This document shows, in pieces, positions 29,926-32,916 of a stretch of 64,000 nucleotides of DNA. The notes under the pieces are model-generated. The model did no database searches. It worked only from the letters and a program-made list of their open reading frames with translations, and had not been told where the DNA came from. Source of the DNA: Methanoculleus taiwanensis (GTDB lineage Archaea > Halobacteriota > Methanomicrobia > Methanomicrobiales > Methanoculleaceae); contig NZ_LHQS01000002.1 of the NCBI RefSeq assembly GCF_004102725.1, positions 363,984 to 427,983 of the forward strand. Direction: 5' to 3'. Position 1 is the stretch's first letter. Each line of letters opens with the position of its first letter. Both the position numbers and the translations under genes were made by a program.

Positions 29926-31934
29926 TTTGCTTACCCTCTTGGCACGTTCTGATATTCAATCCTGCTGGTTTTTCGCCCCGTATCAGCGCCTCGCTCTCCC
30001 GATAGAGCGCTCTACGGTGTATCCGGATCTGCGAGGCCGGTCATATGCCCATGCCCCGCGGTTGCCGCCGGGTTCCCGGCAGGAAGTGGTCGCTTCTTCC
30101 TTGCAGGCTCCGGACGAACCGCGGCCCTCGCTGCCCCTGTATAACATATAGCGTCATGTGGTTTATCTGTTCTGATTTCAGGCTCCGTCTCCCCTCTCCG
30201 ATCCGCCGTTTTGACGTTTTTGGGGGCTCATCTGACTCTCAGGTCCTCCGCACGGCCTGTTTCCCTGCCCAGGGTGCCGGTGCAGACTCCTGTGGCGCTA
30301 TTCGGGGGGTGAGGTCTGCGCCCTCCGGGTTTTCTGCTCTCTCCGGTGGGTGAAGTTGTATGCTGCAGTCCGGCTGGAAACGATGTGGTGGTCGGTTTCT
30401 GCCGGATCGCAGCATTCGCGCCTTGCTGGCGGTGGTAATGCGGATCGCCGGACTCCGGATGTCGTCAGCGAATGGGTCGGCCTCGCCCGCAGGCACGGTA
30501 ACGGGGCGGTGTGCGGAGCGTCTCGGCTGGCGCCATGCCTTTTTCCGGCATTGTTTGCATTCGTCTCGATAGTTCCTGGGGCTCGCTCCCTGTGTGATGG
30601 CATGGGGCAGAGGTTGCTTGGCCGTCCGCTTTCTCGTCCCGGAACTGATCCCATCTTCTCTGTGGGCGGGTGGCTTCTTTCTTCAGTCTGCGGGTTCTTT
30701 TTGGGCGTCTTCTTTGGTATGCCGACACTCATGTCGGGCTGGGCCGGCGCTCCGGGTACGCAGGATACGCTTCGTCCTCGTTTTGGGGATTACGCGCAAA
30801 ACGGTGGGCGTGGGGCTCTGTTGAATCCCCTCTGGGTGATATCTGCCTCTGGTCTTTCGGCGATATCTTCGGTCGTCCTTTCCTCTGTGGCGATCGGTCG
30901 CTCCTGTCCTCCGGGTGCTTGCTCGTGGGGGGTGTGGGATGATCCCTGGTGCTGTTTTTCTGGAATGCATTGGGAAGGGCTGGATTCGGGGCAGTATCTG
31001 AAAGGGGCGAAAATGTCGCCTTTCCTCTGTGAGAATTTTGACTGAGTTTCCCCCGAATACCTCCTGCTGGGGGACGGCCTGGCAGAAGGTGCATGTCACT
31101 CTTGGATGTCCTGCTGGGGGTCAGCTCCCCCGGGTATGCAGCGCAGATGGGTTTACCATCACCTCGTCGGGGTGTTCCTCTTCGGTGCCGTTATTCTTGA
31201 GTGAATGGGTAGGGCTCCGGAACAGTATTCGGGGTGCGTGAGCTGCCTTTCCTCGGGGGGACTTCGTTTGCGGCTCTCGCAATGCCTCTACCGGGAAGGG
31301 GGCTCCCGTAAAAACCACACGTCGTCACTGGACCTCTCGCATGGATCGGTTTCCCCGATGTGCGGTGCGGATGGGTTCGTCGTCATCTCGCGGTCATCGC
31401 TCCGGATGTACTGGGGGTGACGTGTCTGCTCGCACGTGGTGCTCCTCCCTCCCGGGGGGGGCGTCCGCGTATTGCACTTCTGACGGGAGATCTCCTCCTT
31501 TCAGGTATTGTTGTGTGGGTGTGTGCCCGTTCCTTCCTCAAAACGCGTCTGTGAAGGTCATTTATATGTGGGCGATCGGGGGGTCCTGCATCGGGTGGTG
31601 TGGTCGTTCCCCGGCAGTTTCAGTTTCGCCCTGCACGGCGGGGGATTTTAATATGGGGCGCCCTTCTTCTATTCGGGGTCCATCCCCGGGATCCCGTGGG
31701 GCAAACAGTCCCCGTTACCTCCTAAACAATGAACGGAACCACGATCAACTCCGTTACGGCCATCCCATACTTTTTCTGGTGCGATATCTCGTCGGTGCAG
31801 CGCTCAAATCCTGGAATGTCTCTCCCTTTCGTGCCTCCCGCTCGTGGCCTCCCGGGTTGGTGGGACGTTCGGTGCGGCATGGCGGATGCCCCTCTCGCTG
31901 CCCGTAACGATCGGTGTTTCGGACGTATCAATAA
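29926..31934. other. 2 kb gene desert, plus strand T-rich and A-poor
   Basis: No frame here has a ribosome-binding site, a family match or host-like codon use. The plus strand is strikingly poor in A: 30661-30720 has about 2 A and 27 T. The bias runs from about 30150 to 31720. It holds G-runs, C-runs and imperfect repeats; for example, a stretch at 31142-31170 resembles 31362-31390. I searched by eye for SRP RNA and RNase P RNA core motifs and found none. The region ends at the dif-like site and xerA. Confidence 0.6.
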
Positions 31935-31962
31935 GTGTCGCAGAACAGATATTCTGCGACAA
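31935..31962. repeat. dif-like 28 bp palindrome upstream of the Xer recombinase gene
   Basis: GTGTCGCAGAA (31935-31945) and TTCTGCGACAA (31952-31962) are inverted copies, 10 of 11 bases paired, separated by the six bases CAGATA. This 11-6-11 form is the layout of dif sites recognised by Xer recombinases in bacteria and archaea. It lies 33 bases before the start codon of the only Xer-type gene in the window. It could instead be an operator for that gene. Confidence 0.6.
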
Positions 31963-31995
31963 GTTTATCTGCGTCGAGATTAGACTAAATAGTCG

Positions 31996-32916
31996 ATGGA
32001 AAACGGCTTTTTCTCCGACTGGCTCAATCGCTTCGCGCATTACCTCCGGATGCGGAATTACTCCTCAAAAACGGTCGCTAGCTACGACCAGACGGTCCGG
32101 CAGTTCGGCCGGTACGTCTGGCTCCGGCGGTCCGCCGCCGGGGATGCCGGGTCGTTTGACGAGAGGGATTTCGGGCACGCCCGGCTCGATGCGGGTGTCG
32201 AGGTCTCGGCGGCACTGGTCACGGACTTCCTCTCCTACCTCGTCGAGCGGCAGGAGTATCAGCCCCGGACGCTCCACCGGGTGATCTCGACGCTTTCGTC
32301 GTTTTACTCCTATCTCTACGCGCAGGGCGCCGTGACGACGAACCCGATGCTCGGGATCGACCGCCCCCGCATCAAGAATCAGGAGCTCAAGTACCTCAAG
32401 CACAGCCAGGTGCTCCGCCTCATCCGGACGATCGAGGATGACGAGGATCGGCTCATCGTGCGGCTCATCTACGCGACGGGCGTTCGTGTCTCGGAGCTCT
32501 GCACGATCAACGTCGAGGATATCGACTTCGAGGAGCACACTATCCGGGTCACGGGGAAAGGGGATAAGATCCGGATTGTCTTCATCGACGAAGAGACGCT
32601 CGCCGAGGTCGAGCGGTATATCGGGAACCGGATCGTCGGCCCGCTCTTTATCGGCCAGCAGGGAAATCACCTCTCGCCCCGCACCGTGCAGCGGATCTTC
32701 AAGAAGTACGCTCCCGACGGGATCACGCCGCATAAACTCCGCCACTCCTACGCAAGCGAACTCTACCGCCGCTCGAAGAACCTCCGGGTCGTGCAGGAGA
32801 ACCTCGGGCACACCTCGATCAAAACGACCGAGATCTACCTCCATACGGATATCGACGAGCGTAGAAGGGTTTACCGGGAGTTCTTCCCGCTCTCGGATGG
32901 CAAGCGCGACGAGTGA
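31996..32916 (+). CDS. xerA: Xer-type tyrosine recombinase
   Basis: This 306-residue tyrosine recombinase has an N-terminal SAM-like core-binding domain (about 8-110) and a C-terminal catalytic domain. The catalytic residues are Arg164 in ATGVRVSELCTI, Lys188 in TGKGDK, His246 and Arg249 in HKLRHSYASE, His272 in NLGHTS and Tyr281 in EIYLHTD. All are present, so it should be active. XerA proteins in archaea resolve chromosome dimers at dif. The adjacent dif-like site and the gene desert point to that role, although an integrase of a lost element cannot be excluded. Confidence 0.93.
   Translation: MENGFFSDWLNRFAHYLRMRNYSSKTVASYDQTVRQFGRYVWLRRSAAGDAGSFDERDFGHARLDAGVEVSAALVTDFLSYLVERQEYQPRTLHRVISTLSSFYSYLYAQGAVTTNPMLGIDRPRIKNQELKYLKHSQVLRLIRTIEDDEDRLIVRLIYATGVRVSELCTINVEDIDFEEHTIRVTGKGDKIRIVFIDEETLAEVERYIGNRIVGPLFIGQQGNHLSPRTVQRIFKKYAPDGITPHKLRHSYASELYRRSKNLRVVQENLGHTSIKTTEIYLHTDIDERRRVYREFFPLSDGKRDE

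Follow-up and report, generated by a model that had tools for sequence, protein, structure and literature searches.

Introduction

Archaeal XerA/dif systems are already known. The dif sites of the Thermococcales match the bacterial dif consensus at 14-18 of 28 positions (Cortez et al. 2010, PMC2958812), and linkage of dif to xerA has been reported for the Sulfolobales. In bacteria, the insertion site of the Legionella element LME-1 revealed the dif/XerL system (PMC9765430). Our search of the open-access literature, with most subscription papers outside its scope, found no report of a dif site in the Methanomicrobiales and none of elements that use an archaeal dif.

The locus described here lies in a 64,000-nucleotide stretch of the Methanoculleus taiwanensis genome (hereafter the window), where an earlier note had proposed a candidate archaeal dif site in front of a Xer recombinase gene. 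The proposal is supported by the single-copy status of the site, its conservation across the order and insertions in three relatives. From the sequences compared, we judge that this 28-mer is very probably (roughly nine chances in ten) the dif site of M. taiwanensis, linked to its own recombinase gene, xerA.

Results

The features of the locus are as follows, in window coordinates.

31935..31962, no strand assigned: candidate dif site of 28 bp (two 11-bp arms and a 6-bp spacer), based on sequence, single copy, conservation and covariation
31935..31945, plus strand: left arm GTGTCGCAGAA, putative XerA-binding half-site, read from the sequence; co-varies with the right arm in relatives
31946..31951, plus strand: central spacer CAGATA, putative strand-exchange region; within each of three relatives' insertions, both flanking copies have the same spacer
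31952..31962, plus strand: right arm TTCTGCGACAA, putative XerA-binding half-site, from the sequence; co-varies with the left arm in relatives
31964..31969, plus strand: TTTATC, TATA-like box of xerA, directly 3' of the site, read from the sequence; relatives likewise have an A/T-rich box after the site
31996..32916, plus strand: xerA, tyrosine recombinase of 306 aa, based on its NF040815 score and catalytic residues aligned to 4a8e

Direct reading of the 28-mer, GTGTCGCAGAA-CAGATA-TTCTGCGACAA, gives exactly the layout claimed for it, with 11-base arms that pair at 10 of 11 positions around a six-base spacer. Only the outermost pair is unmatched. The gap from the end of the site to the ATG of xerA at 31996 is 33 bp, again as the earlier note had it. 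The gene at 31996-32916 is a xerA by its sequence: the product scores 299.8 bits against NCBIfam NF040815 (recomb_XerA_Arch, cut-off 220), and its closest solved structure is Pyrococcus abyssi XerA (4a8e, E 8.9e-36). Alignment to 4a8e, with residues counted on the translation of 31996-32916, shows that R164, K188, H246, R249, H272 and Y281 are all kept, so the claim of a recombinase with every catalytic residue (R-K-H-R-H-Y) was borne out. Rfam gave no match near the site. The roughly 2 kb upstream of xerA (window 29960-31934) lacks a convincing gene and likewise gave no hit in Rfam.

A palindrome of this quality is not significant by itself. One was observed, where first-order Markov sequences of 64 kb would give about 0.5, and the case for dif must therefore be comparative. 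It is conservation and single-copy status that make the 28-mer significant. The site shares 16 of 28 positions with E. coli dif, whose sequence was checked against the literature (P 0.002 for random palindromes). A pattern search of the organism's own genome, a 2.75-Mb draft in 12 contigs that is 99.98% complete, found the 28-mer at one place when up to 3 mismatches were allowed, the single copy expected of a dif site. The reversed 28-mer, used as a control, had no match in this genome at up to 3 mismatches.

xerA loci were gathered across the Methanomicrobiales, and 88 distinct loci were compared. A dyad was accepted if at least 7 of 11 arm pairs matched around a 6-bp spacer. In 80 of the 88, such a dyad precedes xerA by exactly 33 bp, while every other offset is represented by at most 5 loci. 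In one genus (g20), the dyads are perfect (11+11) and stand 45-46 bp before the gene. In the nearest relative, Methanoculleus sp. FWC-SCC1 (L004), all 28 site bases are identical, compared to 187 of 339 upstream bases. The consensus over 58 distinct sites is nTTGCGCAGAA-TAGnTA-TTCTGCGCAAA.

The arms change together. Most sites pair CGCAGAA with TTCTGCG, those of g20 pair CGCATAA with TTATGCG, and most Methanoculleus sites pair GCGGGGAA with TTTACCGC. The arm covariation score is 0.160 versus 0.085 +- 0.010 for shuffled sets, a value reached in none of 500 shuffles, and sliding the partner columns by 1-3 positions gives at most 0.092. Perfect 11+11 dyads also stand directly before the best XerA in three genomes of a family of the same phylum outside the order (f31; L301, L311, L312 and L313), which shows that the linkage of site and xerA goes beyond the Methanomicrobiales. 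The palindrome beside xerA is thus kept across the order and in one further family of the phylum, which is the conservation that the earlier note had wanted to see checked. Matches in another family, f21 (TGCGCATAATGCAGACGCTGGGCA), do not have a full dyad and were left out of the count.

The constant spacing to the start codon (33 bp in 80 of 88 loci) and the TATA-like box directly after the site would also fit a site that is an operator and nothing else. XerA, or another dimeric regulator, would bind the palindrome and repress xerA, and the real dif would lie elsewhere. The window's genome, however, contains no second dif-like copy. Furthermore, the full site is found off the promoter in some relatives, which contradicts a role as operator only. 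In one genome (G069, L133), it is 790 bp upstream of xerA, where two genes converge on it with their 3' ends; what is left at the xerA promoter is the right half-site alone. In g10 genomes, the full site is about 0.6-1.3 kb from xerA at a varying distance, and a right half-site is present near xerA wherever this was checked. For the g10 loci L209, L210, L096 and L097, together with L133, the distance is 0.6-1.2 kb, on the upstream side. These detached full sites look like the result of old insertions at dif.

The same arrangement bears on a second role for the site. XerA bound at dif could keep transcription factors off the promoter next to it, and xerA output would be lower while the site is occupied. 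The right arm borders directly on the TATA-like box, the spacing to xerA is conserved, and loci whose full site has moved off still have a right half-site at the promoter. On the other hand, the half-site may persist merely through its overlap with promoter sequence, and part of the right-arm conservation may come from the promoter rather than from recombination. We regard such autoregulation as possible, at somewhat less than even odds. It would add to the dif reading and does not exclude it.

Other dif-like sequences were noted in the course of the searches. An intergenic dif-like site (L164:4948-4975, ATGTCGCAGAA-TAGGTA-TTCTGCGCAAT) is present on a 41.5-kb IMG/VR contig that also has a terminase-like gene, and this record has no PF00589 match. 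The other two of the three IMG/VR site matches (L162 and L163) fall within coding frames and were taken as chance. Chromosomal dif-like copies away from xerA occur 0.5-5 kb from other tyrosine recombinase genes (L198:9189-9216, L204:5666-5693 and L205:10067-10094). Perhaps these belong to elements that resolve their own multimers at a dif-like site. G101 and G073 have a further dif-like site in common, which lies far from xerA and has similar flanks in the two genomes (L207:9795-9822 and L208:9943-9970). Another perfect core, located 25 kb from xerA in G015, was not counted as an att site since its outer arms are poorer and its spacer, CTTTAC, is different.

The strongest evidence for recombination lies in genomes with two copies of the site. 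In three relatives' genomes (G085, G125 and G011), virus-like elements of 8.5-8.8 kb adjoin xerA between two direct dif-like copies. Within each genome, both copies carry an identical spacer; between genomes, the spacers differ. In G085, the element (L195:5533-14026) has direct copies 8,466 bp apart next to xerA, and a close relative, G140 (95% identical on the xerA side), has a single empty site. The three sequences are:

attL of G085: ACTTCGCAGAA-TGTCTA-TTCTGCGCAAT
attR of G085: GTACCTCAGAA-TGTCTA-TTCTGCGCAAA
empty attB of G140: ACTTCGCAGAA-TGTCTA-TTCTGCGCAAA

The outer-arm differences among attL, attR and attB place the crossover inside the 28-mer, which is consistent with strand exchange at the spacer. 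The G125 element (L196:5502-14226) is related to that of G085, with an ATPase 77% identical and the spacer TAGGTA in both copies. The G011 element (G011:C1:588488-597274), from another genus, is a distant relative with an ATPase 56% identical. Its copies are 8,759 bp apart, both with the spacer TGACTA, and its genes run in the opposite orientation relative to xerA. The xerA-adjacent site of a Methanoregulaceae MAG (L027:97-124, TAACCTGAGAA-TAGGTA-TTCTGCGCAAA) resembles an element-type attR, and the contig ends close by.

Indirectly, these three natural insertions show that the homologous site supports site-specific recombination in relatives. No insertion at dif was seen in the window's own genome, and the evidence for recombination comes from relatives whose sites are homologous, not identical. 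Together with the detached full sites, the insertions, with their crossover inside the 28-mer, contradict the idea that the palindrome is only a transcription operator. We consider that idea very unlikely.

A small serine recombinase gene (L195:14313-14915) is found beside dif in G085. It is also present in G140, and relatives of it lie near xerA in several g16 genomes. Its position, about 0.3 kb past the host-side end of the G085 element and likewise near the empty site of G140, could suggest that the site belongs to such a recombinase and that XerA is a mere neighbor. However, 11-bp arms around 6 bp are the layout of a tyrosine recombinase site, the serine recombinase gene occurs in a minority of the loci examined, and the site accompanies xerA across the order as well as in a family outside it. 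This explanation seems to us still more improbable than a pure operator, and we retain the reading of the 28-mer as a probable dif site.

The element ATPase was found in 3 of 231 genomes of the order, each with its insertion at the site linked to xerA. A profile search for PF00589 detected no such integrase inside any of the three elements. For the ATPase, there is a match to a head-and-packaging PHROG (E 1e-10) and a weak one to its best PDB relative, STIV B204 (E 6e-4). On the strength of these two matches, we tentatively read the elements as probably small, tailless-virus-like proviruses. Searches of IMG/VR by ATPase, capsid candidate and attP pattern found no relatives of the elements, and none were found in the phage collection. 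AlphaFold models built from shallow alignments had a pLDDT of 38 for the capsid candidate and 43 for the ATPase, and they were left out of the fold search.

The earlier note had also suggested that the site might mark the replication terminus, and this part of it is unsupported. Among 24 single-contig genomes, the angle between xerA and the orc1 gene with the top score ranges from 42 to 170 degrees. Since the genomes are non-independent and there are several orc1 genes, all that can be read from this spread is a position that varies. GC skew, sampled as 20 x 20-kb in three genomes on raw and third codon positions, was too weak to place the terminus. A second orc1 gene (G000:C2:313761-314813) is located about 80 kb from xerA; in many relatives, though not all, the distance is roughly 25-110 kb.

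Discussion

The literature on XerA/dif suggests how the site would work. Each inverted 11-bp arm would be bound by one XerA monomer, which would cut where arm and 6-bp spacer meet; strands would be swapped with another copy of the site. A chromosome dimer has two dif copies, and exchange between them would yield monomers. In relatives, virus-like elements with a dif-like attP sit at the homologous site; the junctions themselves are observed, and XerA would be the catalyst. Site and gene form a linked xerA-dif module, in which XerA bound at dif might, more speculatively, dampen its own promoter.

The insertions point to an archaeal version of the bacterial IMEX strategy. All three insertions at dif lie between hybrid att sites, as those of IMEX do. 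We think it likely that small tailless-virus-like elements of 8.5-8.8 kb, with an ATPase weakly related to STIV B204 and without a tyrosine integrase, insert into methanogen chromosomes at dif via the host XerA. They would do so in at least two genera, and the spacers of element and host agree within a genome and differ from one genome to the next. Virus-like elements using an archaeal dif appear to be unreported so far, and these IMEX-like elements, rather than dif itself, are the newer part of this work.

For the Methanomicrobiales, the analysis supplies a precise, conserved dif sequence beside its recombinase. Archaeal chromosome dimer resolution works without any known homologue of FtsK, and xerA-dif is a compact natural module with which to test this process in archaea. 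That mobile elements already exploit dif also means that natural attP/attB pairs are on offer for methanogen genetics.

The locus has counterparts in both domains. As in the Thermococcales (PMC2958812), there is one XerA and a single-copy, intergenic, 28-bp site with an 11-6-11 dyad, and the resemblance to bacterial sites is of the same order, 16 of 28 against E. coli dif here and 14-18 of 28 against the bacterial consensus there. In contrast, Thermococcales dif is away from xerA, in the termination region, whereas the window site is 33 bp from the gene. In this respect, it is closer to the dif predicted for the Sulfolobales, which is also near xerA; that group belongs to a different phylum, and the portion of the source available to us (PMC2958812) reports no natural insertions there. 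Among bacteria, XerS/difSL of streptococci and lactococci is likewise a single recombinase and an immediately adjacent site in one module (PMC5357621), but difSL is 31 bp long with an 11-bp center and asymmetric arms, while the window site has 28 bp, a 6-bp center and near-symmetric arms. With Legionella dif/XerL and LME-1, our locus shares a single-recombinase dif revealed by the insertion site of an element, near-perfect arms and one junction that is a modified site (PMC9765430). The Legionella site, in contrast, is bacterial and near the terminus, and XerL activity has been shown there by experiment. Finally, the elements resemble bacterial IMEX of the CTX type, in which an imperfect dif mimic allows insertion at the host dif via host Xer. 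They differ from these in being archaeal and in having an ATPase whose best PDB relative is STIV B204.
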